Part shown: piece by piece, positions 5,142-38,873 of the stretch
How the letters are laid out: every line of letters starts with the position of its first letter
How positions within the stretch are numbered: the stretch's first letter is position 1
Source of the DNA: Clostridiaceae bacterium
Lineage (GTDB): Bacteria; Bacillota; Clostridia; Lachnospirales; Lachnospiraceae
Direction: 5' to 3'
Length of the DNA stretch: 39,415 bases
NCBI GenBank assembly: GCA_910575585.1
Contig: CAJTGF010000049.1
Span: 1-39,415 of the forward strand
Notes under the pieces: generated by a model
Database searches by the model: none
Told to the model about the DNA's origin: nothing
The model's input: the letters and a program-made list of their open reading frames with translations, nothing else
Program-made: the position numbers and the translations under genes

Positions 5142-5148
5142 TTTCCTG

Positions 5149-5177: not shown

Positions 5178-5228
5178 ACTCTGTAGGCAGTATAAAACGA
5201 AATTTAAAGAGAAAAAGGAGTGTTTGAT

Positions 5229-7235: not shown

Positions 7236-7255
7236 AGAAAGAAAACGAAAAAAGA

Positions 7256-7300: not shown

Positions 7301-7343
7301 GGTAAGACCCGTCTTTGGGCGATGCTTACGCTTGTGAGGGCGG

Positions 7344-7862: not shown

Positions 7863-7925
7863 AGTGTGTCCTCCTTATGGTTCGGAGCATATGGTAATAT
7901 CTCCGATTCTGCTTTTATTGTACTC

Positions 7926-18717: not shown

Positions 18718-18837
18718 ATGAGCCTGTATAAGCAGGCAAAAACGGCAGAAGCCGCAGAAAGCAGATTTGACATGGATGCAGGAAATTGGGAAGCTGTGAG
18801 GGCAATGAGCCGCCAGAAGGGGCTGTTACTTTCATAG
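18718..18837 (+). CDS. Possible small upstream ORF in the lar leader (39 aa)
   Basis: ATG at 18718 to TAG at 18837, preceded by GGGGG with a 7-nt gap, which is a usable ribosome site. The product is hydrophilic and resembles nothing I know. The ribosome site lies almost at the predicted transcript start, so translation would require a slightly earlier start. It may be chance. Confidence 0.25.
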   Translation: MSLYKQAKTAEAAESRFDMDAGNWEAVRAMSRQKGLLLS

Positions 18838-18917
18838 CTTTTTATAGATTTGGGATATGCGGGAAAAACGGCATATTGAAAGACCGGCAGGAAAATGCCA
18901 GAAGGAGGACAATGTTT

Positions 18918-20520: not shown

Positions 20521-20576
20521 AGGCAGGCCCAGGAGAGATCCCGGGAATGTATGGATGAGAAAGAGAGGATGATAAC

Positions 20577-22405: not shown

Positions 22406-22484
22406 AACATTGGACTAAGGCGGACTGACCTGAAAGAAAACGGGACCGCCGGAAACGATGCGTGACAGGAAAGAAAGGATGCCT

Positions 22485-23990: not shown

Positions 23991-24026
23991 TCCCGAAAGT
24001 ACATTGCGGGCAGTAAGGAGGGTACC

Positions 24027-24905
24027 ATGTATCGGGTATTGATTGCGGATGATGAGATGATTGAGAGGACCGTGCTTTTCAGGACGCTGGACAAAAATCT
24101 GAAAGGACAGTGCCAGATCTTCCAGGCGGAAAACGGCAGGGAGACGCTGGAGATTTATGAGAGGGAGCAGATCCAGATTTTGATCCTGGATATTGAGATG
24201 CCGGGGATCAACGGCATTGAGGCGGCGGAGAGAATCAGGCAGAAGGACAAGGAGTGCAGCATTATCTTTCTCACGGCCTTTGATGAGTTTTCCTACGCGA
24301 AAAAGGCCATAACGGTCCGGGCGCTGGATTACCTGTTAAAGCCCTATGATGAGCAGGAGCTGATGCTGGTCATGGACGAGGCCATGCGCCAGGCGGACGC
24401 CCACGCCAAAAGAAAACAGGAGCTTTGGGAGAGGGAGAAAAAAGACGGGACCAGCCTGCTTGCTGCAGAATGGTCCCAGGGAGGAGAAGATCTGGCACAA
24501 CAGCCCCTGTCCGGGCAGCAGGCGGATCTGGGGCGGCAGGATCAGGAGACATGGGAAGAGTCCGGCAATGTACGGATGGACAAGGTGACGGAGATGATCT
24601 TCCGTTATATACAGGAAAATTATAAGTACGATATCTCCATGCAGGAGCTGGCCAAGGCCATGAACTATTCGGAAGCTTATTTCTGTAAATTATTCAAGCA
24701 GTGTTTCAGCAAAAATTTTACTTCCTACCTAACGGAATACCGGGTAAAGGAGGCAAAACGGATGCTGGAGCAGCCTACGGTCAATGTAAAGGATGTGGGA
24801 AAGGCCGTTGGGTATATGGATTCCAACTATTTTGCCCGGGTGTTTAAGCGGATCACGGGGCAGACGCCTACGGAGTACCGAATGTGCATATTTCAGCGGA
24901 AATGA
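24027..24905 (+). CDS. Response regulator with AraC-type DNA-binding domain
   Basis: 292 aa. Receiver domain at 1-120 (acidic pocket ADDE, phospho-acceptor Asp55 in LDIEMPGING, Lys in LLKPYDE), a Gln-rich linker at about 130-185, then two helix-turn-helix units of the AraC family (DISMQELAKAMNYSEAYFCK, NVKDVGKAVGYMDSNYFAR, TPTEYR). Cognate partner of the kinase just upstream; the probable target is the TRAP operon downstream. Confidence 0.93.
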   Translation: MYRVLIADDEMIERTVLFRTLDKNLKGQCQIFQAENGRETLEIYEREQIQILILDIEMPGINGIEAAERIRQKDKECSIIFLTAFDEFSYAKKAITVRALDYLLKPYDEQELMLVMDEAMRQADAHAKRKQELWEREKKDGTSLLAAEWSQGGEDLAQQPLSGQQADLGRQDQETWEESGNVRMDKVTEMIFRYIQENYKYDISMQELAKAMNYSEAYFCKLFKQCFSKNFTSYLTEYRVKEAKRMLEQPTVNVKDVGKAVGYMDSNYFARVFKRITGQTPTEYRMCIFQRK

Positions 24906-24966
24906 TATTAATTTGACGAAAGATTGTAGAAAGTGTATAAAGTTAAAATAAAATATGGATAAAATA

Positions 24967-25013
24967 GTCCTATGTTTCACAAAAATTTACTGTGTTCATA
25001 GGACGTTTTTTTT
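24967..25013 (+). terminator. Terminator after the kinase-regulator pair
   Basis: GTCCTATG (24967-24974) pairs with CATAGGAC (24997-25004), with an inner CACA/TGTG stem, followed by G and eight T. Confidence 0.9.
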
Positions 25014-25015
25014 CT

Positions 25016-25021
25016 TATAAT
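25016..25021 (+). promoter_or_regulatory. Probable -10 box of the TRAP operon
   Basis: A perfect TATAAT directly after the terminator T-run, but the bases 15-18 bp upstream contain no recognisable -35 (TGTTCA at best). This is the form expected of a promoter switched on by an activator such as the AraC-type regulator next door. The leader to 25099 is about 70 nt. Confidence 0.45.
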
Positions 25022-25098
25022 GGATATAGCGTTAAAAATGCGTTAAAGGCTTTAAGCCAAAGCAAAGTTTAACTTTAGAAAAGAGGAGGATGTGTATC

Positions 25099-26214
25099 AT
25101 GAAAAAGAAATTGATCGTTTCCGTTCTGTGCGCTGCCATGGCAGCATCAAGCCTTGCAGGCTGCGGGCTGAAGAGCCCGGACGAGCCCACCACAGCGGCT
25201 TCGGCAGCGGAGACAACAGCGGCAGCAGGAGAGACAACGGCAGCTCCGGCCGGAGACAGCGCAGGGGGGGCCGGGGCGTACAACACAGATGATATGCCGG
25301 AGATCACTCTGGTGTACGCGGAGGTTAATCCTCTGGACACCATCGTAGGTCAGATGGCTACTGATTTTAAGACCAAGGTTGAGGAGCTTTCCAATGGAAA
25401 GATCAAGATCGACGTGCAGGCCAGCGGCGTTCTCGGTTCTGAGAATGACGTTCTGGATACCATGCTTGGCGGCGGCGGAACCATTGATATGTCCCGTATC
25501 TCCGCATTTGCCCTCACAAGCTACGGCGGAGAGAAGTCCATGCTTCTGTCCCTGCCATACACCTTTGTAAACCGCAACCATTTCTGGAATTTCGCAACCA
25601 GCCCGCTGGCAGAAGAGTTTTTGATGGAATCCCAGGAGAACGGTTCCGGCGTCAGAGGTCTGTACTACGGTGAGGAAGGCTTCCGTCATTTCTTTACTGT
25701 GAAAGATATCGCAGGCATTGACGACTTAAAGGGCATGAAGCTGCGTGTGTCCAACGACCCGGTTATGAACGGCCTGGTAGAGGGACTTGGCGCATCTCCC
25801 ACAGTGGTTTCTTTCAACGAGCTGTACTCTGCTTTGCAGACCGGCGTTGTGGACGGCGCTGAGCAGCCCATCGCCAACTACAAGTCCAACGCTTTCCCGG
25901 AGGTTGCTCCAACTCTGATCCTGGACGGCCATACTCTGGGCGCCGTGCAGGTCATTATCACTGACGAGGCGTGGAATAAGCTGACCGTTGACCAGCAGGG
26001 CATCATCATGGAAGCCGGAGCTTATGCGTCCGAGCAGAACAGAGCTAACTCTGAGAAGAAGGAGAATGAGGTTCTGGAGCAGTTAAAGAGCGAGGGCGTG
26101 AATGTTGTTGAGGTAGCTGACATTGCTCCGTGGCAGGAAGCAACGAAGAAGGTGATCGAGGACAATACGAAAGGCCATGAGGATCTGTACCAGCAGATTC
26201 TGGATCTCCAGTAA
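25099..26214 (+). CDS. dctP: TRAP transporter substrate-binding lipoprotein DctP
   Basis: 371 aa. Signal peptide with lipobox LAGC (cleavage before Cys21), then an Ala/Thr/Glu linker to about 60. The DctP fold starts at ITLVYAEVNPLDTIVGQMA, with QASGVLGSENDVLDTMLGGG, the conserved DLKGMKLRVSNDPVM segment (Arg contacting the ligand carboxylate) and NELYSALQTGVVDGAEQP. It presents organic acids such as C4-dicarboxylates or sugar acids to the membrane subunits; the exact ligand is unknown. The ATG at 25099 is 9 nt after AGAGGAGG. Confidence 0.93.
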   Translation: MKKKLIVSVLCAAMAASSLAGCGLKSPDEPTTAASAAETTAAAGETTAAPAGDSAGGAGAYNTDDMPEITLVYAEVNPLDTIVGQMATDFKTKVEELSNGKIKIDVQASGVLGSENDVLDTMLGGGGTIDMSRISAFALTSYGGEKSMLLSLPYTFVNRNHFWNFATSPLAEEFLMESQENGSGVRGLYYGEEGFRHFFTVKDIAGIDDLKGMKLRVSNDPVMNGLVEGLGASPTVVSFNELYSALQTGVVDGAEQPIANYKSNAFPEVAPTLILDGHTLGAVQVIITDEAWNKLTVDQQGIIMEAGAYASEQNRANSEKKENEVLEQLKSEGVNVVEVADIAPWQEATKKVIEDNTKGHEDLYQQILDLQ

Positions 26215-26244
26215 AAAGGATCCATTTACAAATGGAGTAAAATG

Positions 26245-26279
26245 GGCGCAGAGGGGGCGCACGCCTCTGCGCCTTTTAT
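26245..26279 (+). terminator. Hairpin between dctP and dctQ (partial terminator)
   Basis: GGCGCAGAGG (26245-26254) pairs perfectly with CCTCTGCGCC (26264-26273) and is followed by TTTTAT. A small CCATTT/AAATGG hairpin precedes it. It probably reduces read-through so that the binding protein is made in excess over the membrane subunits. Confidence 0.75.
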
Positions 26280-26335
26280 AAGCCGGGTAAAGGGGTGGCA
26301 GGCTCGTTTCCGGCTTCAATGAAGGAGGGGTTTCT

Positions 26336-26857
26336 ATGCCAGAGATTTTTAAGACCATTGACAAGATTAAACCGGCATATGATATTACATATAACGCAGT
26401 TATGGTTATCTGTAAGCTGCTGTTGATTGCCGACATCATCATTACCACCATGTCAGTTATCGGCCGCTATGTGCCCTTTATTCCCGATCCGGCCTGGAGC
26501 GAGGAGGTGGTGCTGACCTGCATGTCCTACATGGCGGTGCTGTCCGCGGCCCTTGCGATCCGCAGAGGGGCTCATATCCGTATGACTGCCCTGGATACCT
26601 ACCTTCCCAAGGGACTGGTGAAGTTCCTTGATATCCTGGCGGACGTGGCGGTCCTGGCTCTTTCCATGATCATGATCGTGGTGGGCTGGCAGTATGCCAC
26701 GGGACTGGGAGCAAAGGGAAGCTATGTGAGCATGCCCGGCGTGTCCAGGTTCTGGATGTATTTCCCGGTTCCTCTTGCAGGCGTTGCCATGCTGATTTTT
26801 GAGCTGGAGGCGGTCTATAATCATATTAAGGGATTCTTTGTAAAGGAGGAGGCGTAA
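26336..26857 (+). CDS. dctQ: TRAP transporter small membrane subunit DctQ
   Basis: 173 aa with four hydrophobic segments, the standard DctQ size. It has the family's RYVPFIPDPAWSEEVVLTCM and AIRRGAHIRMTALDTYLP segments. It bridges the binding protein and DctM in the membrane. The start follows GGAGGGG, and the gene ends 2 bp before dctM. Confidence 0.92.
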   Translation: MPEIFKTIDKIKPAYDITYNAVMVICKLLLIADIIITTMSVIGRYVPFIPDPAWSEEVVLTCMSYMAVLSAALAIRRGAHIRMTALDTYLPKGLVKFLDILADVAVLALSMIMIVVGWQYATGLGAKGSYVSMPGVSRFWMYFPVPLAGVAMLIFELEAVYNHIKGFFVKEEA

Positions 26858-26859
26858 GT

Positions 26860-28155
26860 ATGAGTGTGGATACTATGGCGATTGCCATTTTACTTGGTAG
26901 TTTCTTTGTGATGGTATTTTTGCGGTTCCCCATTGCCTATGCGGTTGCCCTCTCTTCGGTCTTCTGTCTTATGGCCCAGGGACTGCCTTTGACTACGATC
27001 TGTCAGCAGATGGTAAAGGGCATCAGTTCCTTCAGCCTGATGGCGGTTCCATTCTTCATTACTATGGGATGTCTGATGGGGTCCGGCGGCATCTCGGAAA
27101 AACTGATCGCTTTGGCCAATGCCTGCGTAGGCTGGATGCGGGGCGGCATGGCCATGGTAAATATTGTGGCGTCCTATTTCTTCGGCGGTATCTCCGGATC
27201 GGCGTCGGCGGATACGGCTTCCCTTGGTTCGATCCTGATCCCCATGATGGTAGATCAGGGGTATGATGACGATTTCTCCACGGCGGTTACCATCACCTCC
27301 TCCTGCGAGGGGCTTTTGGTCCCGCCCAGCCATAATATGGTCATCTACGCCACCACTGCCGGGGGCATCTCCGTAGGCAGCCTGTTTTTGGCGGGATATG
27401 TGCCGGGAGCGCTTCTGGCGGCTTCTTTAATGATCGGGTCCTACATCATCTCCGTAAAGCGGAATTATCCCAAGGGAGAGAAGTTCAGTATCGGCAACCT
27501 GATCAGACAGCTAAGCGTGTCGTTCTGGGCCCTGGCCGCCGTGCTTATCGTAGTGTTCGGCGTGGTGTTCGGATGGTTTACGGCCACGGAGTCCGCGGCT
27601 GTGGCGGTTATCTACAGCTTGTTTGTCAGCGTGTTTATCTACAAGGGCCTTGACTGGAAAGGCGTGTGGAGAGTGCTGGGGGACTGTGTGGATACGCTGT
27701 CCATCGTGCTGATATTGATCGCTACATCCAGTATCTTCGGATACTGCCTTACCAGGCTCCACGTGCCGGATCTGGCGGCTAACGCCATTACGGGTCTTAC
27801 CAGGAATCCGATCCTTTTGGCTTTGATGCTGAACCTGATCCTGCTGGTGTTAGGCTGCATTATGGATATGGCTCCCATTATTTTGATCGCCACTCCCATT
27901 TTGCTGCCCATCGCCACTTCCATTGGTCTTGATCCCATCCAGTTCGGCATCATGGTGGTGCTTAACTGCGGTATCGGACTGCTGACCCCGCCTGTAGGCG
28001 CGGTGCTGTTTATCGGGTCGGCTGTGGCTAAGGTGCCTATGGAGAAGGTGGTTAAGGCTACGCTGCCGTTTTATGTGTGTATGGTGATCACACTGCTTCT
28101 GATCACGTTTATACCGGGCATCAGTATGTGGCTGCCCCAGTTGCTGGCAAAATGA
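26860..28155 (+). CDS. dctM: TRAP transporter large membrane subunit DctM
   Basis: 431 aa with about 12 membrane helices, the Na+-coupled transport channel of the TRAP importer. Conserved segments: GISSFSLMAVPFFITMG, FFGGISGSASADTASLG, LVPPSHNMVIYA and NCGIGLLTPPVGAVLF. Normal length. The ribosome site lies in the dctQ stop region (GGAGGAGG). A terminator follows after 25 bp. Confidence 0.95.
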   Translation: MSVDTMAIAILLGSFFVMVFLRFPIAYAVALSSVFCLMAQGLPLTTICQQMVKGISSFSLMAVPFFITMGCLMGSGGISEKLIALANACVGWMRGGMAMVNIVASYFFGGISGSASADTASLGSILIPMMVDQGYDDDFSTAVTITSSCEGLLVPPSHNMVIYATTAGGISVGSLFLAGYVPGALLAASLMIGSYIISVKRNYPKGEKFSIGNLIRQLSVSFWALAAVLIVVFGVVFGWFTATESAAVAVIYSLFVSVFIYKGLDWKGVWRVLGDCVDTLSIVLILIATSSIFGYCLTRLHVPDLAANAITGLTRNPILLALMLNLILLVLGCIMDMAPIILIATPILLPIATSIGLDPIQFGIMVVLNCGIGLLTPPVGAVLFIGSAVAKVPMEKVVKATLPFYVCMVITLLLITFIPGISMWLPQLLAK

Positions 28156-28180
28156 TATTGTGATAAGATAAGGAGGACAG

Positions 28181-28206
28181 GGTCAGACGACTCTGGCCTC
28201 TTTTTT
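28181..28206 (+). terminator. Terminator between dctM and the second DctP-like gene
   Basis: GGTCAGA (28181-28187), loop CGAC, TCTGGCC (28192-28198), then TC and six T. It separates the TRAP operon from the next gene, at least partly. Confidence 0.8.
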
Positions 28207-28234
28207 ATTGGGAGAAAACGAGGGAAAGGAAAGG

Positions 28235-29293
28235 GTGAAGGACTTGGCGCAGGGCAGTTTGGGATATAAAAAAAGAAGAGGGGCCTTATTTTCCCTGGGG
28301 GTTTTGGCCCTTGGGGTCATGGCTGCGGAAATGGGAGGGTGTGCAGGCCCAGGGGATGGCAGGAAGGATTTTGATGTGCCGGAGTTTGTGCTAACTTACG
28401 CGGAGAATCAGCCGGAAGATTATCCCACGACCCAGGGGGCGTATCGGTTTGCCCAACTGGTGTATGAAAGGACCAATGGCAGGGTGGAGATCCAGGTGAG
28501 CGCAGGCGGCGTGCTGGGGGAGGAGCAGAGCACTATTGAGCAGATGCAGTTTGGAGGCATTGATTTTGCCCGGGTGTCCCTGTCGTCGCTGTCGGATTTT
28601 ATTCCGAAAATGAATGTGCTGCAGATGCCTTATCTCTACACCGACGCGGACCATATGTGGCAGGTGCTGGAGGGGGAGATCGGGGACGTGTTTTTAGATT
28701 CCCTGGACGGGGTGGGGCTGGTGGCTCTGTCCTGGTATGACGCGGGGGCAAGGAATTTTTACAGCGTGAAAAACCCTGTGGAGACACTGGAGGACATGAA
28801 AGGGATGCGGGTCAGGGTTCAGGAGTCGGAGCTTATGAAGGCAGTGGTGGAGGCTCTGGGGGCGTCGGCAGTCCCCATGGCTTATGATGAGGTGTACTCG
28901 GCGCTGGAGACAGGAAGGATTGACGCGGCAGAGAACAACTGGCCTTCCTATGAATCCATGAGGCATTTCGAGGTGGCGCCCTATTATACGGTGGACGAAC
29001 ACACCAGGGTGCCGGAGATGCAGCTGGTGTCGGAGGCCACCTGGAAAAAGCTGCCCCAGGAGTACCATGAGATCATCCGGCAGTGCGCCAGGGAGTCGGC
29101 GGTATATGAGAGACAGCTGTGGCAGGAGCGGATCCACCAGTCGGAGGAGCGGGTGAGAAAAGAGGGCTGCCAGGTGGTGGAGCTTTCCCAGGAGGAGAAG
29201 GGAAGGTTTCGGGAGGCTATGCTCTCCATCTACGGGGAGTACTGCGGAGAGTACATGGATATCATTGAGGAGATCTTAGAGGCCGGCAGATAG
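28235..29293 (+). CDS. Second DctP-like substrate-binding lipoprotein
   Basis: 352 aa. A long basic N-terminus (VKDLAQGSLGYKKRRG) precedes the hydrophobic signal and a lipobox MGGC. The mature part is a DctP domain: FVLTYAENQPEDYPTTQGA, VSAGGVLGEEQSTIEQMQFG, DMKGMRVRVQESELMKAVV, DEVYSALETGRIDAAENNWP. It is clearly diverged from the first DctP and has no membrane subunits of its own. The GTG at 28235 follows GGAAAGGAAAGG; a TTG at 28208 lies next to the upstream terminator. It may bring a second ligand to the same DctQM, or act as a sensor partner for the YesM kinase. Confidence 0.85.
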   Translation: MKDLAQGSLGYKKRRGALFSLGVLALGVMAAEMGGCAGPGDGRKDFDVPEFVLTYAENQPEDYPTTQGAYRFAQLVYERTNGRVEIQVSAGGVLGEEQSTIEQMQFGGIDFARVSLSSLSDFIPKMNVLQMPYLYTDADHMWQVLEGEIGDVFLDSLDGVGLVALSWYDAGARNFYSVKNPVETLEDMKGMRVRVQESELMKAVVEALGASAVPMAYDEVYSALETGRIDAAENNWPSYESMRHFEVAPYYTVDEHTRVPEMQLVSEATWKKLPQEYHEIIRQCARESAVYERQLWQERIHQSEERVRKEGCQVVELSQEEKGRFREAMLSIYGEYCGEYMDIIEEILEAGR

Positions 29294-29364: not shown

Positions 29365-29414
29365 ACAGTTCGCAATCTTGTTTATACTTTTTTAATAAAT
29401 GAAAGGGGATGTCT

Positions 29415-29891
29415 ATGTATCTTTTATTTTTGGCAGTTTGGCTGATTCTAAACGGTAAGGTGACAGCAGAAATCCTTGTGTTTGGCATTGTGATTTCGGC
29501 GGCGCTTTTTGCGTTTACCTGCAGATTTCTGGATTACAGCCTGCACAAGGAGATCCTGTTGTTCCATCTGATACCCTTTTTCATCAGGTATTTATGGGTG
29601 CTGGTGAAGGAGATCTTCAAGGCCAACATGTGTGTGTTAAAGATCATCTTTTCGCTGGATCTGCAGCCGGAGCCGGGATTTGTGTATTTCGACACCAGCT
29701 TTAAGACCGGAACGGCAAAAATGTTGTTGGCCAATTCCATCACTCTGACGCCGGGGACCATTACCGTGTCTGTAGAAGGGGACCGGTTCTGCGTCCACTA
29801 TCTGGATAAGGAGCTGGCAGATGGGGTTGAGGATTCGGTGTTTGTAGAATTATTGAAAGAAATGGAGGCGGAGGGAGCAAAATGGAGCTAA
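29415..29891 (+). CDS. mrpE: Mrp/Mbh antiporter subunit E
   Basis: 158 aa. It has two or three N-terminal helices (LLFLAVWLILNG; FHLIPFFIRYLWVLVKEIFKAN) and a soluble tail with the MrpE pattern TGTAKMLLANSITLTPGTITV. First gene of a ten-gene operon for a multi-subunit Na+(K+)/H+ antiporter; equivalent to MbhA. The ATG at 29415 has AAAGGGG 6 nt upstream; the ATG at 29409 abuts that site. Overlaps mrpF by 10 bp. Confidence 0.88.
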   Translation: MYLLFLAVWLILNGKVTAEILVFGIVISAALFAFTCRFLDYSLHKEILLFHLIPFFIRYLWVLVKEIFKANMCVLKIIFSLDLQPEPGFVYFDTSFKTGTAKMLLANSITLTPGTITVSVEGDRFCVHYLDKELADGVEDSVFVELLKEMEAEGAKWS

Positions 29892-30262
29892 TACAGCAGG
29901 TCTATGCTGCCGTCATGTCAGTGGCGGTTGTGGTGCTGGCCGTACTGATCGTCATAAGTATTGTCCGTTCCATACTGGGGCCGGGGATCTCCGACCGTAT
30001 CATCGCGGTCAATATGATCGGCACCATGGTCATTATGATCACCGCCATATTGTCCGTAATGCTTAACGAAAATTATTTGGCGGATATCTGCCTGATCTAT
30101 GCCATGATCAGTTTTCTGGGAGTGGTGCTGTTCTGCAAGGTGTATACAGGCGTGTATCTGCAGAGAAAACATATGCTGGCGGATTTAAAAGCCATTGAGG
30201 ATAACTTAGATAAGCAGGCGGCAGACCATGAGGGTCTCCAGGAAGAGGAGGTGGCGCGGTGA
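29882..30262 (+). CDS. mrpF: Mrp/Mbh antiporter subunit F
   Basis: 126 aa with three helices and the family segment GPGISDRIIAVNMIGTMVI, followed by NYLADICLIYAMISFLGVV. The C-terminal ~35 residues are an extra acidic, soluble tail, longer than usual MrpF/MbhB. It overlaps both neighbours, indicating translational coupling. Confidence 0.9.
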   Translation: MELIQQVYAAVMSVAVVVLAVLIVISIVRSILGPGISDRIIAVNMIGTMVIMITAILSVMLNENYLADICLIYAMISFLGVVLFCKVYTGVYLQRKHMLADLKAIEDNLDKQAADHEGLQEEEVAR

Positions 30263-30669
30263 TCGGTGAGTGGATCCGGGTATTGGTCTCTTTTGGACTG
30301 ACGGTTGTGGGCGTCGCCTTTATGGTGGCGGCGGTGTTTGGGGTAAACCGGTTCAACCATGCGTTAAACCGTATGCACGCCGCTGCTCTGGGAGATACTC
30401 TGGGATTATTATTTGTTATTTTGGGGACTATCATCATGCGGGGATTATCCATGGATTCCTTAAAACTTGCCATGGTCATTATATTTTTCTGGATCGCGTC
30501 TCCGGTATGCAGCCATATGATCAGCCGTCTGGAAGCTATGACCGATGAGAGTCTGGGAGAGATCACGGTTCTGGAGAAAAATAATGCCGTTCGGGTGGAG
30601 AAACCCGACATGGAAAAGAAAGAGAAAAAGAGTTCTGCAAAGAAGAAAAAGGGGGGTAAAAAAAGATGA
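30259..30669 (+). CDS. mrpG: Mrp/Mbh antiporter subunit G
   Basis: 136 aa with three helices and the MrpG pattern RFNHALNRMHAAALGDTLG. The last ~20 residues are a striking lysine-rich tail (KKEKKSSAKKKKGGKKR), probably cytoplasmic and contacting lipid or the acidic tail of subunit F. Starts at GTG, overlapping the mrpF stop, behind AGGAGGTG. Confidence 0.88.
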   Translation: MIGEWIRVLVSFGLTVVGVAFMVAAVFGVNRFNHALNRMHAAALGDTLGLLFVILGTIIMRGLSMDSLKLAMVIIFFWIASPVCSHMISRLEAMTDESLGEITVLEKNNAVRVEKPDMEKKEKKSSAKKKKGGKKR

Positions 30670-30932
30670 AGCTGTTCGAGGGGATTCTTTTATTCAGCTT
30701 GATCGTGTGTGCGTTGTCCGTGGCATTTACAAAGGATTTGCTGACCTCCATCATTATTTTTATGTCCTACAGCCTGATCATGTGCATCATCTGGATGATC
30801 CTCCAATCTCCGGATCTTGCCATAACCGAGGCGGCCGTAGGCGCGGGAGTTACCAGCATTCTGTTTTTCCTGACTTTGAAAAAGATCAAAGCGGTGCGAA
30901 AGGAGGAGGACAGTGAGCAGGATCAGGGATGA
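30666..30932 (+). CDS. MbhD-like small subunit (DUF4040)
   Basis: 88 aa, three helices. It has the DUF4040 pattern in which a conserved segment SLIMCIIWMILQSPDLAITE precedes AAVGAGVTSILFF. In canonical Mrp this domain is the C-terminal part of the large MrpA subunit; in Mbh hydrogenases it is the free MbhD protein, as here. Starts at an ATGA overlap with mrpG. Confidence 0.85.
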   Translation: MKLFEGILLFSLIVCALSVAFTKDLLTSIIIFMSYSLIMCIIWMILQSPDLAITEAAVGAGVTSILFFLTLKKIKAVRKEEDSEQDQG

Positions 30933-31860
30933 TTATGAGACGAGCCGGTGGAAAAAATTTAAGGGCTGGCTCAACGGTGAGACGGACCTTCTGGAACACG
31001 GCATGGAGGCCAGGGAAGCGGTTTTGCGGGAAGAGGACCCCATAGTTTTGCCGCCCCACGGCGAGGGCAGGGAGGTCTTAAAGTCCAAAGGGATCTGGCG
31101 TTTTAAACAGCTGTATAAATTTATGTCGGTGGCGCTGTGCCTGGGCGTGATTTTAACGCTTCTGTGGACCGTGGCGGCTCTGCCCATTACGGGAAATGCC
31201 GACAATCCGGATAACAACGAAGTGGCGGCTCGCTACATCGAGCGGGGGCTCCAGGAGACGGGAGCGGTCAATATTGTTACGGGCATGATCTTAGACTACC
31301 GTGCCTTTGATACCTTTGGAGAGTCCTGTGTGCTGTTTATCGGTTCCTGCTGCGTGCTGCTTCTTCTGCGCCTGGACGGGAGCGGCAGGGACAAGGATCT
31401 GGAAAGGCTTGTAAACGAGACCAATGACAGGCACTTTGAGCCAAAGGATGACATCATTTTGCAGAAGTGTTCCTGCGTGCTGGTGCCGGTGATCTTGATA
31501 TTCGGGATCTATATTGTGCTCAACGGCCATCTGTCGCCGGGCGGCGGGTTCTCCGGCGGCGCGGTCCTTGGCGCGGGGCTTATTTTGTATTTAAATGCGT
31601 TTGGATATGAGAGGATGGGAAAGCTGTTTACGGAAAAGCTGTATAAGCGGATCACCTTAAGCGCGCTGACCTTTTACTGTCTGGCAAAAAGCTATTCCTT
31701 TTTCACAGGCGCCAATCATCTGGAAAGCGGGATCCCTCTGGGGACGCCGGGCGCTATTTTGAGCAGCGGACTGATCCTGCCCTTGAATATCTGCGTGGGT
31801 CTTGTGGTGGCCTGCACCATGTATACGTTTTACACCCTGTTCAGGAAAGGGGGCATGTGA
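30913..31860 (+). CDS. mrpB: MbhE-MrpB fusion subunit
   Basis: 315 aa, about twice normal MrpB length. After a soluble N-terminal ~70 residues, residues about 75-165 match the MbhE / end-of-MrpA region (RYIERGLQETGAVNIVTGMI, LDYRAFDTFGESCVLF). Residues about 190-315 are the MrpB/MbhF domain (NGHLSPGGGFSGGAVLGAG, FFTGANHLESGIPLGTPG). The C-terminal pieces of MrpA are thus distributed between this gene and the preceding one. GTG start 20 bp inside the previous gene, behind GGAGGAGG. Confidence 0.87.
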   Translation: MSRIRDDYETSRWKKFKGWLNGETDLLEHGMEAREAVLREEDPIVLPPHGEGREVLKSKGIWRFKQLYKFMSVALCLGVILTLLWTVAALPITGNADNPDNNEVAARYIERGLQETGAVNIVTGMILDYRAFDTFGESCVLFIGSCCVLLLLRLDGSGRDKDLERLVNETNDRHFEPKDDIILQKCSCVLVPVILIFGIYIVLNGHLSPGGGFSGGAVLGAGLILYLNAFGYERMGKLFTEKLYKRITLSALTFYCLAKSYSFFTGANHLESGIPLGTPGAILSSGLILPLNICVGLVVACTMYTFYTLFRKGGM

Positions 31861-32258
31861 TCGCCATGAATGTTAATGTAATACAGCATTTATTATTAAG
31901 TATAGAAGAGACGGCATCCATCATCCTGTTCGGCATCGGGTTTACCATACTTTTGCTGCACCGGAATCTGGTGAAGAAGATTATGGGGATGAATATTATG
32001 GATACGGCTACCTACCTGTTTTTGGCGGTTAAAGGGTATATCACAGGGCGGGCGGTGCCTATCGTGGTAGACGGGGTCCAGGATGTGGAGGCGTACATCA
32101 ACCCGGTGCCCAGCGGCCTTGTGCTCACGGGCATCGTGGTGTCCGTAAGTACCACGGCCCTGATGCTGGCTTTGACGATTCGTCTGTATGAGCGGTATCA
32201 TTCTCTGGATTTGGATGAGATTTTGATTTTGGCCAAAGAGGAGGAGGAACACATATGA
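31857..32258 (+). CDS. mrpC: Mrp/Mbh antiporter subunit C (NuoK-like)
   Basis: 133 aa with three helices, homologous to NuoK of complex I. It contains FGIGFTILLLHRNLVKKIMGMNIMD and the Mrp-specific DVEAYINPVPSGLVLTGIVVS. GTG start overlapping the mrpB stop; an ATG at 31866 is an alternative. Overlaps mrpD by 4 bp. Confidence 0.9.
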   Translation: MIAMNVNVIQHLLLSIEETASIILFGIGFTILLLHRNLVKKIMGMNIMDTATYLFLAVKGYITGRAVPIVVDGVQDVEAYINPVPSGLVLTGIVVSVSTTALMLALTIRLYERYHSLDLDEILILAKEEEEHI

Positions 32259-33757
32259 GTTTTGTACAGAATTTTCCGTTTTTCTCCATTATCCTAGCCA
32301 TGTTTTCCGGAATCGTATCATCTGTTTTAAGCCCAAAGAAAGCCAGAAATCTAACACTTGGGATGCTCGTCATAACGACGGCGCTGTCCGCGGGAACCTT
32401 GGCTTTCTGCTTAAAGACAGGGCAGAGTTATACCTACATGATGGGGCATTTTCCGGCTCCCTGGGGCAATGAGATACGGGCCGGAGTGCTGGAAGGCGTG
32501 ACGGCCGTGCTTTTTGGCATCGTTATGTTTCTGTCTGTGGTGGGAGGAATGGCCCATACAAATGAGGATGTGGAGGAGAGCAAACGAAACCTGTTTTACA
32601 TCATGATCGATCTGATGTTAAGCTCTCTTTTGGCGCTGGTGTACACCAACGATCTGTTTACGGCTTACGTGTTTGTGGAGATCAACACCATCGCCGGGTG
32701 CGGTCTGATCATGATCCGCCAAAAAGGGCGGAACTTATCGGCGGCTATCCGCTATATGGTCATGAGCCAGCTTGGCTCCGGTCTGTTCCTTATCGGACTG
32801 ACCCTTCTTTACGACGTGACCGGGCATCTGCTCATGAGTCCGGCCAAAGAGTCTGTGGAGCTTTTGGTGGCGGCGGGACAGTATAAGATCCCCCTTCTGA
32901 TGATCATGGCGGTCATCAGTGTGGGACTGGCCATCAAAAGCGGACTGTATCCTTTCCACTATTGGATACCGGATACTTACGGATACGCCACGCCTACAGG
33001 AAGCGCGGTTTTGTCGGGCCTGGTGTCCAAGGGATATATCTTTTTGCTGATAAAGATTTTTTACCGTGTGTTGGGCCATGAGAATCTGGTAGGGACCCAT
33101 ATGGTCAATATCCTGTACGTGTTTGGGATCTGCGGCATGATCATGGGTTCCCTTCATGCCATCGGGGAGACGGATACGAGAAGGATGATCGCTTACTCGT
33201 CCGTGGCCCAGATCGGCTACATCTACATGGGCATCGGTCTGGGGACCACAGCGGGCATGGTGGCGGCAGTTTTCCATATCTTTGCGCACTCGGCCACAAA
33301 AGCCCTGCTGTTTATCAGCGCCGTAGGGCTTTACAAGGTGTCAGGGGACAGAAAGGACTTTGTGAGCCTTCGAGGAGCGGCGTTCCGCAATCCGCTGGCA
33401 GGAGTGGGCTTTGGCATAGGCGCGCTCTCCATGGTGGGATTCCCCATGCTGTCAGGGTTTATCTCAAAGCTTTTATTTGCCACGTCGGCGCTGGACAGCC
33501 AGGATAAGATGCTGCCCACGCTGTTTGTGCTGGCTTTGAGCACATTGTTAAACGCGGTTTACTTTTTAAGGCTGATGATCACGTTGTATTCCAGGAGACG
33601 GCCGGAGGATAAGCCCCTTCCGGAATATACAAAGGCGGGGAATTTCTGGGGGCTTAAGTTTTCCATTGTTTGCTTTATCATTTTGAACCTGGTATTGGGC
33701 ATGTATTCTCAGCCCATTGTACAGGCCATCACAGACGGACTTGCCATGTTTGATTAA
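32255..33757 (+). CDS. mrpD: Antiporter-like subunit 1 (MrpD/MbhH, NuoL/M/N family)
   Basis: 500 aa, about 14 helices. The key ion-path residues are present: Glu142 in FVEINT (helix 5), Lys228 in AIKSGLYPFH (helix 7), the broken helix region TGSAVLSGLVSKGY, His/Lys in HIFAHSATKALLF, and Lys in GFISKLL. It lies at the mbhH position of the operon. Starts at an ATGA overlap with mrpC. Confidence 0.9.
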   Translation: MSFVQNFPFFSIILAMFSGIVSSVLSPKKARNLTLGMLVITTALSAGTLAFCLKTGQSYTYMMGHFPAPWGNEIRAGVLEGVTAVLFGIVMFLSVVGGMAHTNEDVEESKRNLFYIMIDLMLSSLLALVYTNDLFTAYVFVEINTIAGCGLIMIRQKGRNLSAAIRYMVMSQLGSGLFLIGLTLLYDVTGHLLMSPAKESVELLVAAGQYKIPLLMIMAVISVGLAIKSGLYPFHYWIPDTYGYATPTGSAVLSGLVSKGYIFLLIKIFYRVLGHENLVGTHMVNILYVFGICGMIMGSLHAIGETDTRRMIAYSSVAQIGYIYMGIGLGTTAGMVAAVFHIFAHSATKALLFISAVGLYKVSGDRKDFVSLRGAAFRNPLAGVGFGIGALSMVGFPMLSGFISKLLFATSALDSQDKMLPTLFVLALSTLLNAVYFLRLMITLYSRRRPEDKPLPEYTKAGNFWGLKFSIVCFIILNLVLGMYSQPIVQAITDGLAMFD

Positions 33758-33770
33758 AAGGAGAGAAGTT

Positions 33771-35264
33771 ATGGAGGGAAATGTGATTTTGCTGCTTCCG
33801 GTGGTCTGTCCCATATTGGCAGGCGTTCTGGTGCTGGCAGGAAAGGTGTTTCGAAAGGACAGGAAAAGCCTGATTGGGACCTCTCTGGCAGTTCTTGCGC
33901 TGGAAACGGGACTGACGGCCTGGGCCCTGATATCAGGGGGAAGTATCCAGGTGTGGAAGCTGACCGGGCAGATGGATATCAGTTTCCATGTGGATGAGAT
34001 CAGTCGTCTGTTCGCGGCGCTGACGGCCGCGGTCTGGCTGCTGGCGGGGATCTACTCTGTGGCCTATATGTCCCATGAGAAGGAGGAACACCGGTTTTTT
34101 GGGTATTACCTGATCGTTGTGGGGGTTCTCATGGGGCTGAATCTTTCAGCCAACTTGATCACCATGTATGTATTTTTCGAGATGATGACTTTGACATCTC
34201 TGCCCTTAGTCCTTCATGAAAGGAGCCGGGCGGCGGTGATGGCCGGTCTGAAATATCTGTTTTACTCGGTGGCGGGCGCGTTTTTGGCGCTGTTTGGGAT
34301 CTTCTTTCTGGCCGGGGTATCAGAGGATCTGACGTTTACGGCCGGCGGTATCTTAAGCGACGGGATGATCGCAGGGAAGGAAGGGCTTCTTTTGGCTTCC
34401 GCGTTCTGCATGATCGTGGGATTTGGGGCCAAGGCAGGCATGTTCCCTCTCCACGGGTGGCTTCCCACAGCCCATCCCGTGGCTCCCGCCAGCGCCAGCG
34501 CGGTGCTCTCCGGTCTGATTACCAAGGCAGGTGTCTTGGCGGTCATACGGGTCGTATATTTTATCGTCGGCCCCCACAGGCTGCGGGGGACCTGGGTGCA
34601 GAACGGATGGATCCTTTTGTCCCTGATAACCGTGTTTATGGGCTCAATGCTGGCTTACAGGGAGTCGGTGCTGAAAAAGCGTCTGGCCTATTCTACGGTG
34701 AGCCAGGTCAGCTACGTGATGTTCGGCTTAAGCCTTTTGACTCCCATGGGATTTGCGGGGGCTTTAAGCCATGTGGTGTTCCACTCCGTTATCAAGCATA
34801 CCCTGTTTTTGGCGGCAGGCGCCATTATTGTCACCACGGGATGGACCCGGGTGGAGCAGATGCGGGGATTGGGAAAGGTAATGCCCTTGACCCTGGTATG
34901 TTATACCGCGGCGTCCCTGGCCCTTATCGGCATTCCGCCGTTTGGCGGCTTTGTCAGCAAATGGTATCTGGCCTGCGGGGCGCTGGCTTCCAATACGGGA
35001 GTCTGGTCCTGGGCGGGGCCGGCAGTGCTTTTGGTAAGCGCCCTTTTGACGGCGGGATATCTGCTGCCTTTGACCATACAGGGATTTTTCCCGGGGCATG
35101 ATTTTAAAGGCGAGGAGATCGAGAAGAGAAAGCTGGGGGGAAAGGAGCCGTCTTTGTGGATGCTTGGACCCATCGGTGTTTTGGCTGCGGCGGCTCTTTT
35201 GTTTGGGTGTTTCCCGGACCGTTTACTGGTAATGATCGAATCGATTGCAGCAATGGTACTTTGA
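33771..35264 (+). CDS. Antiporter-like subunit 2 (NuoL/M/N family)
   Basis: 497 aa, about 14 helices. Glu137 in FFEMMT, Lys221 in GAKAGMFPLHGWLP, HPVAPASASAVLSGLITKAG and FGGFVSKWYL make it a complete antiporter-type subunit. The ATG at 33771 follows GGAGAG with short spacing; an in-frame start at 33717 would overlap the upstream gene and is rejected. 13-bp gaps on either side. Confidence 0.9.
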   Translation: MEGNVILLLPVVCPILAGVLVLAGKVFRKDRKSLIGTSLAVLALETGLTAWALISGGSIQVWKLTGQMDISFHVDEISRLFAALTAAVWLLAGIYSVAYMSHEKEEHRFFGYYLIVVGVLMGLNLSANLITMYVFFEMMTLTSLPLVLHERSRAAVMAGLKYLFYSVAGAFLALFGIFFLAGVSEDLTFTAGGILSDGMIAGKEGLLLASAFCMIVGFGAKAGMFPLHGWLPTAHPVAPASASAVLSGLITKAGVLAVIRVVYFIVGPHRLRGTWVQNGWILLSLITVFMGSMLAYRESVLKKRLAYSTVSQVSYVMFGLSLLTPMGFAGALSHVVFHSVIKHTLFLAAGAIIVTTGWTRVEQMRGLGKVMPLTLVCYTAASLALIGIPPFGGFVSKWYLACGALASNTGVWSWAGPAVLLVSALLTAGYLLPLTIQGFFPGHDFKGEEIEKRKLGGKEPSLWMLGPIGVLAAAALLFGCFPDRLLVMIESIAAMVL

Positions 35265-35277
35265 TGGAGGGATGAAT

Positions 35278-36834
35278 ATGAGCGAAATAATACTGGCCTT
35301 ACCGGTGTTTCTCCCTATCTTTGGCGGGCTGGCCATGCTGGCTCACCGGCCGGGGGAGGGGATCTTACGCTGGAACCGGAGCCGGGCCCTTCTGACGGCG
35401 GCTCTGGTGCTGCTGAACAGCCTTATTGTGGCGGCTGTTCTGGCAGGAGGCGTGGACGGGGAGCGCCGTTTGGTGGTGTTCAAACTGTACGCGTCCTTGA
35501 CGGTCATGTTTAAATTGGACAGGATGGGGGCGCTGTTTGCGGGCATGGTGGCGTTTTTGTGGCCTTTGGCTACCTTGTACGCCTTTGAGTATATGGAGCA
35601 TGAGGAAAGGAAAAATACGTTTTTTGCCTTTTATCTCATGACCTATGGAGTTACCATGGGCATTGCCTTTGCCGGGACTCTGGTGACGCTGTATCTGTTT
35701 TATGAGATGCTTACATTTGTGACCCTGCCTCTTGTGATGTTTACTCTTACCAAGGAGGCAGTCCGGGCTAGCCGGGCTTATCTGTACTACTCCATAGGAG
35801 GAGCCGCTTTTGCCTTTATCGGCATGGTGTTTGTTCTGGGGTATTCTTCCATAGAGACTTCGGAGTTTGTGGCCGGAGGCATGCTGGATCTGGCCAGGGC
35901 AGGGCAGAATAAGAATACGCTCCTTTTGGTGTATTTGATGGCGTTTTTCGGGTTTGGAGTGAAGGCGGCCGTGTTCCCCTGCTATCGATGGCTTCCCAAG
36001 GCGGCTGTGGCGCCCACGCCCGTGACCGCGCTGCTTCATGCGGTGGCGGTGGTAAAGTCCGGCGCTTTCGCCATTCTGCGGCTGACGTATTTCAGCTTCG
36101 GCATCGGATTTTTAAGAGGAAGCTGGGCTCAGTGGGCGGTAATGGCCGCGGCTATGGTGACTATTTTTTTCGGTTCTTCCATGGCGGTGAAGGAGGTCCA
36201 CTGGAAGCGGCGTCTGGCCTACTCTACCATAAGCAATCTGTCCTATATCCTGTTTGGTGCAGCGCTTATGAGCCCTCTTGGCCTGGCAGCCGGATTGAGC
36301 CATATGGTGGCCCACGCGTTTATGAAAATAAGCGCCTTTTTCTGCGCCGGCGCCGTGATGCATAAGTCGGGCAAAACATACATCTACCAGTTGGACGGTA
36401 TGGGAAAGAAGATGCCCATAACCTTTGGATGCCTTACGGCGGCCAGTTTATCCCTGATGGGTATCCCTATGTTCGCGGGATTTATCAGCAAGTGGAATCT
36501 GGCCCAGGCCGCGTTTGACTGCGGCGCCGCCATGACCGCGGCAGGCGGAGGGGACGGCGGCGCAGGACGGTGGCTTCCCTACATGGGAGTGGCTGTGATC
36601 CTTTTGTCGGCTTTGCTGACCGGGATCTATATGATGACTGTGCTGGTGAGAGCTTACTTTCCAAAGACCGGGGAAGCCGGGGCAATGCAGGAGACAGACA
36701 AGTCGGTGACAGATCCTACCTGGAAGATGCTTCTGCCGCTTGTGGTGTTTACGGCGGTCATTTTGGCCATCGGCGTGCATCCGGCTCCTTTGATGGAATT
36801 TTTAATGAAGATTGGAGGTGAAGTGGGAGTATGA
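35278..36834 (+). CDS. Antiporter-like subunit 3 (NuoL/M/N family)
   Basis: 518 aa, about 14 helices. Glu143 in FYEMLT and Lys229 in GVKAAVFPCYRWLP are present. The usual FPLHxWLP motif reads FPCYRWLP, so the conserved helix-7/8 histidine is replaced by tyrosine, and the downstream helix reads ALLHAVAVVKSG. AHAFMKISAFF and GFISKWNL are normal. The ATG at 35278 is 7 nt after GGAGGG. Overlaps the last gene by 4 bp. Confidence 0.9.
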   Translation: MSEIILALPVFLPIFGGLAMLAHRPGEGILRWNRSRALLTAALVLLNSLIVAAVLAGGVDGERRLVVFKLYASLTVMFKLDRMGALFAGMVAFLWPLATLYAFEYMEHEERKNTFFAFYLMTYGVTMGIAFAGTLVTLYLFYEMLTFVTLPLVMFTLTKEAVRASRAYLYYSIGGAAFAFIGMVFVLGYSSIETSEFVAGGMLDLARAGQNKNTLLLVYLMAFFGFGVKAAVFPCYRWLPKAAVAPTPVTALLHAVAVVKSGAFAILRLTYFSFGIGFLRGSWAQWAVMAAAMVTIFFGSSMAVKEVHWKRRLAYSTISNLSYILFGAALMSPLGLAAGLSHMVAHAFMKISAFFCAGAVMHKSGKTYIYQLDGMGKKMPITFGCLTAASLSLMGIPMFAGFISKWNLAQAAFDCGAAMTAAGGGDGGAGRWLPYMGVAVILLSALLTGIYMMTVLVRAYFPKTGEAGAMQETDKSVTDPTWKMLLPLVVFTAVILAIGVHPAPLMEFLMKIGGEVGV

Positions 36835-38873
36835 ACGGATGGGAGATTCTGATCCCCGGCATCTGCGGTATGGGGCTCCACCTGAAAATGGACGGATTCC
36901 GCATGGTGTACACGGCCATCGCCGTTGTGATGTGGGGCGTTGCCGGGATATTTTCAAAGGAATATATGGCTCATTACAAGAACAGATCCAGATATTACGT
37001 GTTTTTGTGGGCTACGTTTTTGGCCACGGTAGGCGTGTTTTTGTCAGCGGATCTATACACCACCTTCATCTTCTTTGAGATCATGTCCTTTACCTCCTAT
37101 GTGTGGGTGGCATTTGACGAGAGGGCGGAAAGTCTGCGGGCAGCCGAGACGTATCTGGCTGTGGCGGTCATCGGCGGCATGGTAATGCTCATGGGGCTGT
37201 TTTTGCTCCAGGATGTGCTGGGGACTCTCGACATGGACGGCATCGGACCTGCTGCAAAAGCGGTTTTGGCAGGCAGGGAGACCTTTGACAACGGGCAGGC
37301 CATCCACGCGGCAGGAGGATTTGCGTCAGCGAAAACGCAGCTTTACGTGGCAGGAGGGCTTATGCTCTTTGGATTCGGTGCGAAGGCAGGGTGTTTTCCG
37401 CTGCATATCTGGCTGCCAAAGGCCCATCCGGTGGCTCCGGCTCCGGCCAGCGCGCTGTTGTCGGGAATCTTGACCAAGGCCGGTGTGTTCGGCGTGATCC
37501 TGGTGTCCTGCGTCATGTTTGGCAGCGACGGCGGCTGGGGGCTCCTTATTGCGGGGCTTGGCCTTGTGACCATGTTTTTGGGGGCGCTCCTTGCGGTGTT
37601 TTCCGTCAATCTTAAGCGGACCCTGGCCTGCTCTTCCGTGTCCCAGATCGGGTTTATTATGACTGGCATCGGAATGTCCTGTCTCCTTTCCTGGGCAGGG
37701 GAGGAGAATGTTCTTGCGGCGCGGGGGGCGTTTCTGCACATGGTAAACCATTCCCTCATCAAGCTGGTGCTGTTTTTGTGCGCCGGCGCGGTGTTTATGA
37801 ACCTGCATCAGCTGGATCTAAATGACGTGAGAGGATTTGGGCGGGGCAAACCGGCTCTGTGCTTCTGCTTTTTAATGGGAGCCCTGGGAATCGGCGGGAT
37901 CCCTCTGTGGAACGGCTATGTCAGCAAAACGCTGCTCCATGAGAGCATCGTGAAATACGTCCACCTTCTAAACGCCGGTGTATCGGTTGAGGCAGGCGGC
38001 GCGCCGGCCGCTCTGCTGCCGGTGCTTACGGATCCGTCTGTGTGGAAAGGGGCGGAGTGGGTATTTCTGTTTACCGGCGGTATGACGGTGGCCTATATGG
38101 TGAAACTGTTTGTGGCATTGTTTGTGGAGAAACATCCCACCAGGCAGGCGGAGTTTGACAAACTGTCCTCCCATTATATGACGCCATTGAGCACAGCGGC
38201 CCTTGTGGGCGCGGCGGCTGTCCTTCCGGTTCTTGGGATGATCCCTCATCTTACCATGGACCGGATTGGAGACATGGGGCAGGGATTTTTCCATGCAGAA
38301 GGCCATGGCCATGTGATCCAGTATTTCTCGTTTGTGAACCTGAAAGGCGGGCTCATATCCATTGGGATCGGAGCCGTGCTGTATGTGGCCGTGATCCGGC
38401 AGTTCATGATGAAGTCCCAGGGGACGGGAGAAAAGCGCTATGTGGATCTTTGGCCGTCGTGGTTTGATCTGGAGGATCTGGTGTACCGTCCGGCGCTGAA
38501 AGCGTCCGCGGCGCTGGCCTGTCTGGCATTCAGGGCCTTGGAACAGGTGACCGACGGTCTGGTGCTCCTTGGCCGCAAGACGGTGTACAGGCAGCTTCCG
38601 GAACCGAAGACCTATGTGGAAGGCGACTGGCTGGCTCATGTGCTGGGGATCTTTGCGGACGGCTGGATGTTTTTGTGGGACAGCGTGACGGGAAAGCGGA
38701 AGAAAGGACAGCCCAGAGCGTCGGCAGTCAGCCGGTTCATAGAGCGGGAAAGACGGATCAAGCATATGGGAGAGCTGGTGGAACAGAGTTTTTCCTTTGG
38801 GCTTATGCTGGCCTGCATTGGGTTGTGCCTGACATTAGGGTATCTGTGGGCTTCGTTCTATCATTGGATGTAA
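36831..38873 (+). CDS. Antiporter-like subunit 4, long form (HyfB/NuoL-like)
   Basis: 680 aa. The core has Glu83 in FFEIMS, Lys185 in GAKAGCFPLHIWLPKAHPVAP, NHSLIKLVLFLCAGA and NGYVSKTLL. Helix 5 lies about 55 residues nearer the N-terminus than in the three sister subunits, so the first one or two helices seem absent. The C-terminal ~200 residues form an extension with a probable amphipathic segment (WFDLEDLVYRPALKASAALA), a basic loop and a final helix, resembling HyfB/NuoL tails. Last gene of the operon; no hydrogenase or electron-transfer gene follows. Confidence 0.88.
   Translation: MNGWEILIPGICGMGLHLKMDGFRMVYTAIAVVMWGVAGIFSKEYMAHYKNRSRYYVFLWATFLATVGVFLSADLYTTFIFFEIMSFTSYVWVAFDERAESLRAAETYLAVAVIGGMVMLMGLFLLQDVLGTLDMDGIGPAAKAVLAGRETFDNGQAIHAAGGFASAKTQLYVAGGLMLFGFGAKAGCFPLHIWLPKAHPVAPAPASALLSGILTKAGVFGVILVSCVMFGSDGGWGLLIAGLGLVTMFLGALLAVFSVNLKRTLACSSVSQIGFIMTGIGMSCLLSWAGEENVLAARGAFLHMVNHSLIKLVLFLCAGAVFMNLHQLDLNDVRGFGRGKPALCFCFLMGALGIGGIPLWNGYVSKTLLHESIVKYVHLLNAGVSVEAGGAPAALLPVLTDPSVWKGAEWVFLFTGGMTVAYMVKLFVALFVEKHPTRQAEFDKLSSHYMTPLSTAALVGAAAVLPVLGMIPHLTMDRIGDMGQGFFHAEGHGHVIQYFSFVNLKGGLISIGIGAVLYVAVIRQFMMKSQGTGEKRYVDLWPSWFDLEDLVYRPALKASAALACLAFRALEQVTDGLVLLGRKTVYRQLPEPKTYVEGDWLAHVLGIFADGWMFLWDSVTGKRKKGQPRASAVSRFIERERRIKHMGELVEQSFSFGLMLACIGLCLTLGYLWASFYHWM

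Follow-up and report, generated by a model that had tools for sequence, protein, structure and literature searches.

Among the Mrp cation/proton antiporters (CPA3), group 3 is defined by the absence of mrpA and the presence of one or more mrpD genes (PMC8415708), or by an irregular gene order (PMC5703873). Sets in print include the stand-alone mrpEFGBB'CD cluster of Pyrococcus furiosus (PMC8415708), those written as MrpEFGBBBCD and MrpDD in Unc8 (PMC6305446), and one in Verruconatronum given as MrpEFGBCD1D2D3 in the text and MrpABCD1D2D3EFG in a table of the same paper (PMC13274419), as well as a Nitrospira cluster in which two more NuoM/NuoL-like genes follow mrpD of an mrpA-G set (PMC7784846) and which probably belongs to the same three-D kind of Mrp. 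Archaeal mbh-related clusters combine up to three such subunits with a redox module, with three large subunits in Pyrococcus abyssi and in one Staphylothermus marinus cluster (PMC2678158), and four or five pumping subunits occur in the 2M, green and Manganitrophaceae forms of complex I (PMC9040806). Here we describe a ten-gene mrp-type operon with four antiporter-like subunits, D1 to D4, at positions 29409-38873 on the + strand of a 39,415-nucleotide stretch of DNA (the window) from a Clostridiaceae bacterium. It probably encodes a stand-alone group 3 Mrp antiporter, exchanging Na+ (or K+) for H+, whose extra subunits would raise the H+:Na+ ratio.

The window makes up all of contig 49; the genome, 6.1 Mb in 253 contigs, is 96.9% complete. 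Its cluster holds the E, F, G, B and C subunits of group 3 Mrp (CPA3) and several large subunits, all of mrpD type, in irregular order, and fits the definition of that group. Like the P. furiosus mrpEFGBB'CD cluster, it has the order E F G B B' C D and MbhD/MbhE-type domains and has neither mrpA nor a redox module, but there are four antiporter-like subunits instead of one, and the fusion is of MbhE with MrpB rather than with MbhD. Two three-D sets that we read directly, on plasmids of Peptoclostridium acidaminophilum and Halobaculum, are stand-alone as well, with the order E F G MbhD/E B C D and an Asn at the D35f place of MrpF; in three-D sets, of which the printed cases are contrasted by description only, the antiporter-like units number three with a single middle one, whereas the window has four with the middle one duplicated. 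The membrane-bound hydrogenase (MBH) and membrane-bound sulfane-sulfur reductase (MBS) of P. furiosus share with the window the cation module and the sequence type of MbhD/MbhE and C, and the MBS H' subunit with its lateral helix (HL) resembles D4 (PMC7684303), but these complexes, like the P. abyssi and S. marinus clusters, carry a hydrogenase-like redox arm that the window is without, and their antiporter-like subunits number one (MBH) and two (MBS) as against four. Group 1/2 Mrp (structures 6Z16, 7QRU and 7D3U) is built of the same subunit families, yet differs in its large fused mrpA, its two antiporter-like subunits and the Asp at the D35f place. The 2M, green and Manganitrophaceae complexes I, as portrayed in PMC9040806, match or exceed the window in their four or five antiporter-like subunits but are quinone- and redox-driven, and the green-type cluster of Sinorhizobium has no E/F/G cation module, although its first MrpD-like subunit falls in the same clade as the middle subunits of the window. 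A preliminary description of this DNA, made from the sequence alone, had set the operon against a complex I with three such subunits, a number that is not universal given the forms with four or five (PMC9040806). It had also presented the arrangement as unusual: several mrpD genes without mrpA are in fact the accepted group 3, and three-D sets are in print; no stand-alone four-D Mrp was found in the open-licence papers searched.

The operon and its conservation

The ten open reading frames (ORFs) proposed in the preliminary description were all confirmed on the + strand and assigned to families with Pfam and NCBIfam profiles, in the order mrpE, F, G, mbhD, mbhE+mrpB, C, D1, D2, D3 and D4. First comes mrpE, of the MnhE family (29409..29891, 160 amino acids (aa); PF01899, E 1.8e-29), whose first ATG lies at 29409, 29415 being the next in-frame Met, and it is followed by mrpF (29882..30262, 126 aa; PF04066, E 1.5e-13), mrpG (30259..30669, 136 aa; PF03334, E 4e-20), an mbhD-like gene (30666..30932, 88 aa; PF13244, E 4.1e-21), the mbhE+mrpB fusion (30913..31860, 315 aa; PF20501, E 1.1e-9, and PF04039, E 4.6e-25; best PDB profile match 6u8y_E) and mrpC, MrpC/NuoK-like and closest to its MBS/MBH counterparts (31857..32258, 133 aa; PF00420, E 1.8e-20; best PDB match 6u8y_G). 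The four Proton_antipo_M (PF00361) proteins then follow, of 500, 499, 519 and 680 aa: D1 (32255..33757), on the MrpD/NuoN side, with MbsH (6u8y_H) as best PDB match; D2 (33765..35264) and D3 (35275..36834), middle antiporter-like subunits that are sister paralogs; and the distal, MrpA-N/NuoL-like D4 (36831..38873), whose stop codon ends at 38873, 542 bases before the end of the contig. There is no mrpA as a single gene joining an N-terminal antiporter domain to an MbhD/E domain, MbhD and MbhE/B being encoded apart from D1-D4.

The genes are tightly packed. Seven of the nine junctions in the window overlap by 4-20 bases, and gaps of 7 and 10 bases separate D1 from D2 and D2 from D3 when the starts of D2 and D3 are placed at the ATGs at 33765 and 35275. 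Among 65 complete orthologous operons the median is overlap or contact at the first six junctions, 15 bases at D1-D2 and 13 bases at D2-D3; the median of 151 bases at D3-D4 is an overestimate, because D4 starts were set to match the window and many relatives have about 50 extra N-terminal residues. A promoter scan gave a match count equal to the mean of shuffled sequences.

The layout recurs in relatives. A contig scan with D4 yielded 112 of them, and the 80 loci kept are mostly titled Lachnospiraceae, Oscillospiraceae or Hungatella. The exact ten-gene order, whose first seven genes the preliminary description had recognised as following the Mbh membrane module, is present in 62 of the 80, a recurrence that chance does not account for; in another 15 the start of the locus is truncated by a contig end, and three deviate otherwise: L077, which we read as an ORF-start artefact, L085, where no MbhD was called, and L112, where an extra D2 (5337-8300) brings the antiporter-like subunits to five, both D2 copies keeping the key residues. 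Since these loci were picked by likeness to the D4 of the window, the share with four subunits among them is not a general frequency. A family-level search gave a match at E <= 1e-40 in 43 of 200 genomes, three of these reaching only 1e-41 to 1e-45, and in 40 further, more distant Bacillota loci, which are the best hits of a search and not a random sample, the large subunits in the operon number four in 7 loci, three in 22 and two in 3, with 8 cut or unclear.

Aligned to NuoL of Escherichia coli, all four large subunits have a full set of proton-path residues. The helix-5 Glu and helix-7 Lys reported for the window in the preliminary description, together with the Lys residues of transmembrane helices (TM) 8 and 12, are invariant in D1 (66/66), D2 (67/67), D3 (66/66) and D4 (66/66), counted over the window and the 65 complete orthologous operons, some of which are close relatives of each other; the D2 count includes both copies of L112. 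In the window these residues are E142, K228, K259 and K405 in D1, E139, K223, K254 and K399 in D2, E144, K230, K261 and K406 in D3, and E83, K185, K216 and K366 in D4. The TM12 residue is thus Lys in D1-D4, in contrast to the Glu of E. coli NuoM and HyfB, and D3 also has a TM8 His (H255), as do the single middle subunits of L189 (P. acidaminophilum) and L147.

Most of the places compared on the route proposed for cations in the Mrp of Anoxybacillus flavithermus (PMC7419157) have counterparts as well. Over the same operons MrpE P115, read as P114e by motif, is kept in 66/66, MrpF D38 (= D29f) in 66/66, and the MbhD residue E55, which aligns with E69d of MBH, is Glu in 65/65. D133 and E137 of the EB fusion (DTxGE motif; 66/66) are read, by motif, as D792a and E796a at the proposed Na+ exit, and the acidic D49 of MrpC (66/66), which we match in the same way to the double-cavity residues, would lie close to the cation site proposed there.

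Origin of the four large subunits

Trees of 208 large subunits (FastTree) and of 103 of them (IQ-TREE), both midpoint-rooted, are concordant. D1 groups with MrpD and NuoN (98.2/99), D4 lies in a clade with MrpA-N, NuoL, NuoM and Hyf/Hyc subunits (99.8/95), and D2 and D3 form sister clades (99.9/100) within a clade that we call middle A (100/100). L189 and L147 have one middle A subunit each, which in both falls outside D2+D3, and the D2/D3 duplication therefore postdates a three-subunit state. Other Bacillota operons have a different middle subunit, middle B (96.7/99), and the order D1-A-B-D4 is found in L149, L157 and L171 in the IQ-TREE analysis and in L176 in the FastTree one. As the D1, A and D4 subtrees agree in their branching, with L149/L157 and then L189/L147 next to the window lineage (96.6/84 for D4 at the L149/L157 step), the operon has evolved largely as a unit. 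The simplest history would run from four subunits (A+B) to three (B lost), back to four (A doubled) and on to five (L112), its first step being the least certain; L148, placed within the D2 clade (85/92) with three large subunits only, would be either a loss or a gap.

These trees bear on one of the two possibilities raised in the preliminary description, an unusual stoichiometry or an ancestral-like module. An ancestral four-subunit module is unsupported for the window operon, where D2 and D3 are a duplication, and the fourth subunit reads as a product of its lineage and not as a relic; the A+B operons nevertheless leave room for an earlier state of four subunits that was later reduced by losses. 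In make-up, four-subunit operons come in at least two forms, A+A and A+B. The other possibility, an unusual stoichiometry, stands as a fair prediction because four subunits carry the full proton-path residues.

A related side observation concerns L191, a locus on pSymA of Sinorhizobium meliloti, where two MrpD-like subunits of green-type complex I lie at 3991-7458. The first of them joins the middle-A clade, and the second, along with the C half of a haloarchaeal double subunit, joins the NuoL side, which suggests that a multi-D Mrp was the source of both together.

The terminal subunit D4 lacks the first helices of the HyfB profile, its match beginning only at profile position 68. An AlphaFold2 model based on 63 sequences (predicted local distance difference test (pLDDT) 87.9; predicted TM-score (pTM) 0.83) places TM15 at 501-525, amphipathic helices at 547-584, 600-620 and 632-653, and TM16 at 656-679, the linker being in part below pLDDT 60; its best structural matches are the MrpA chains 9a6h_A and 7qru_A (TM-score to query 0.65-0.68). 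D4 is accordingly predicted to have the MrpA/NuoL fold with a C-terminal amphipathic segment. C-terminal helices clamp the row of subunits in MrpA, MbsH' and NuoL, and in MBH, MBS and complex I the length of HL is reported to go with the number of subunits (PMC7684303). An HL insertion is described for two of the unusual complexes I and for some ordinary-sized ones too, the rhizobial green form being without it (PMC9040806). Tried as a ruler of subunit number across the loci compared, the length of the D4 lateral-helix linker gave no clean relation.

This last result, the origin of D2 and D3 by duplication, and the three large subunits called in L148, of the same lineage, would all suit an added middle subunit that is structural, regulatory or a spare copy and leaves the usual 2 H+:1 Na+ ratio unchanged. 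Against this, the proton-path residues are invariant in D2 and D3 alike across the window and the 65 operons, which fits a working role, as does the occurrence of four-subunit states of at least two compositions. An unchanged ratio is on these grounds rather unlikely in our view, and a raised one is preferred.

Redox partners and the sodium context

The preliminary description found no hydrogenase beside the operon, and this extends to the genome: at E <= 0.001, in an assembly of which some 3% may be missing, PF00361 matches D1-D4 only, and PF00346 (NuoD/hydrogenase large subunit), PF01058 (NuoB) and PF00146 (NuoH/MbhM) find no match, so that no docking subunit of the NuoH/MbhM type was detected; each of the last three profiles has matches in 11 of 14 control genomes. 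An MBH, MBS or group-4 hydrogenase, which would require homologs of NuoD/MbhL, NuoB/MbhJ and NuoH/MbhM, was accordingly rejected, as were complex I, with its Q-module and NuoH, and a hydrogenase or complex I partner encoded elsewhere in the genome. A hidden partner in a conserved neighbouring gene was set aside likewise. The survey past the last subunit that had been suggested at the outset covered up to 10 kb downstream of the 80 loci and, on the mrpE side, in most of them no more than about 2.5 kb, and revealed no conserved flanking gene, the largest family (single-linkage; read from its sequence as an ABC ATPase) occurring in 15/80, on either strand and scattered. With E. coli Nuo, Hyf and Hyc probes these flanks gave matches only in L037 and L038, which have NuoE/F/G-like genes on the opposite strand and a ferredoxin-like ORF, and in L085, which has two ferredoxin-like ORFs, hence no regular oxidoreductase; of the 40 more distant loci, L148 carries NuoE/F-like genes that diverge from its operon.

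Rnf does recur beside mrp-type genes in part of the distant loci. In 12 of the 40 distant Bacillota loci, best hits as noted above, rnf genes adjoin them (L151, L152, L155, L158, L160-L164, L167, L179 and L184). In 11 of the 12 they precede the mrp-type genes on the same strand, separated from them by no more than one called gene in the cases listed, and L184 has rnfC/D downstream on the opposite strand; a single rnfG-like gene occurs in L170 and in L172. Beside the 80 close loci, with their short upstream flank of about 2.5 kb or less, there is no clear rnf gene, the weak RnfB-probe matches in L037 and L038 being NuoF-like and ferredoxin-like ORFs. The adjacency is a feature of certain lineages and not general. 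The preliminary description held that an oxidoreductase regularly following orthologous operons would speak against a stand-alone antiporter: none does so among the close relatives within the flanks covered, and the rnf genes of the distant ones belong to a separate enzyme and supply no Mbh-type hydrogenase arm. Both Rnf and Mrp also occur in Methanosarcina acetivorans. The genome of the window has an rnfCDGEAB cluster on another contig, and this, with the adjacency in the distant loci, is what could be expected if the complex docked on Rnf or another ferredoxin oxidoreductase and were redox-driven like MBH; but the adjacency also fits a shared Na+ currency, and the lack of a clear rnf gene in the short upstream flanks of the close relatives and of an MbhM/NuoH-type match in the genome makes such docking quite improbable beside the preferred stand-alone antiporter.

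Several genes of the organism would suit the use of sodium as a currency. F-type ATP synthase genes are present, and the c subunit has GPGVGQG and AETTGLY (GPGVGQG...LGQAVAETTGLY), a pattern that we take to be the Na+-binding motif of Ilyobacter-type c subunits; judged by it, the ATP synthase looks Na+-type. A sodium:neurotransmitter symporter family (SNF) gene lies about 19 kb upstream of the operon, and genes of a tripartite ATP-independent periplasmic (TRAP) transporter lie just upstream; TRAP transporters and SNF symporters are usually Na+-driven. The TRAP genes (DctP, DctQ, DctM and a second DctP) share the region 22458-29293 with a histidine kinase/AraC-type response regulator pair and end 115 bases 5' of mrpE on the same strand. 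A functional tie to the operon was considered and not retained as a general one, because only four close loci (L036-L039) have both upstream families. Farther upstream, at 18786-22175, AIR-carboxylase-like (aminoimidazole ribonucleotide) and nickel-insertion family genes surround an ORF with no Pfam match at 1e-10, a set that presumably resembles the one for the Lar nickel-pincer cofactor.

Proposed coupling ratio and cation route

According to the mechanism published for Mrp, a pair of antiporter-like subunits carries 2 H+ per Na+, with the TM12 Lys of one subunit coupled to the TM5 Glu/TM7 Lys of its neighbour, and the unit is considered extendable to three or four subunits in complex I-like enzymes (PMC7419157). 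Applied to the window, the small subunits E, F, G, MbhD, MbhE/B and C would form the cation module, D1 would adjoin it with D2, D3 and D4 in line, and the C-terminal helices of D4 would clamp the row, like the HL of MrpA/NuoL. Protons would enter through each antiporter-like subunit, neighbours would be coupled through the TM12 Lys of one and the TM5 Glu/TM7 Lys of the next, and the final coupling would link the row to Na+ (or K+) within the cation module. With one H+ per antiporter-like subunit, as in the two-subunit model at about 2 H+:1 Na+, four would give up to about 4 H+:1 Na+, and a weak proton force could be stepped up into a steep Na+ gradient: by simple multiplication, about 45 mV of proton force would hold about 180 mV of Na+ force. 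The gradient might then serve the Na+-type-looking ATP synthase and Na+ symporters, with Rnf as a separate redox pump. We infer the single complex of all four, its linear order, the direction, ion and stoichiometry of exchange, and the physiological role; the weights attached to this explanation and to its rivals overlap.

Two matters weigh against it. The first is that the place of D35f in MrpF is N44 in the window and Asn in 66/66 of the operons counted, although D35f is described as invariably conserved and its change to Leu as inactivating (PMC7419157), changes to Glu or Asn having a mild effect in Bacillus subtilis and a highly detrimental one in E. coli (PMC7419157). Asp occupies this place in five aligned MrpF/MbhB/MbsB chains of known structure (6z16_F, 6cfw_B, 6u8y_B, 7qru_F and 7d3u_F) and in L190 and L192, both of group 1/2 type. 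Asn stands there in 34 of the 35 other loci of this gene family with a called F (L146-L185, L189 and L193), the remaining one, L152, having Thr, and the haloarchaeon has Asn. We take the Asn as a mark of the gene family, and it warns that the cation route, or the ion itself, may differ. Five residues after this place, 29 of 37 MrpF rows have Lys, and the window lineage has M, Q, I or L.

The second is that D1/D4 and D2/D3 may belong to alternative or separate complexes with common small subunits, in place of four in a row. Pairs of large subunits can indeed be encoded apart, as the writing of MrpDD separately from MrpEFGBBBCD (PMC6305446) and the layout of L160 indicate, where just two large-subunit genes, one middle-type and one D4-type, follow rnfCDGEAB and no small mrp subunit was called in the 18 kb covered. 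Against this partition stands the single tight row of all ten genes in 62 of 80 loci, and we consider it improbable compared with the four-subunit complex.

If each large subunit of the preferred antiporter does carry its own proton, a natural series could be imagined, and we put it forward tentatively: stand-alone Mrp complexes would range from one proton-channel subunit to five, lined up in a row, with one H+ gained for each. In this series the complex of the window would be a step-up transformer of about 4 H+:1 Na+, and the four-subunit state would have arisen on at least two occasions, through A+B and through A+A middle subunits. It has long been asked if each antiporter-like subunit of Mrp and complex I moves one proton per cycle, and complex I is ill suited to giving the answer, since the redox arm determines its drive. 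A complex free of redox parts, with a naturally varying number of subunits and with sister duplicates that can be removed singly, would allow the H+:Na+ ratio to be measured against subunit count, and would bear on the exchange of protons for sodium in fermenting gut Clostridia.

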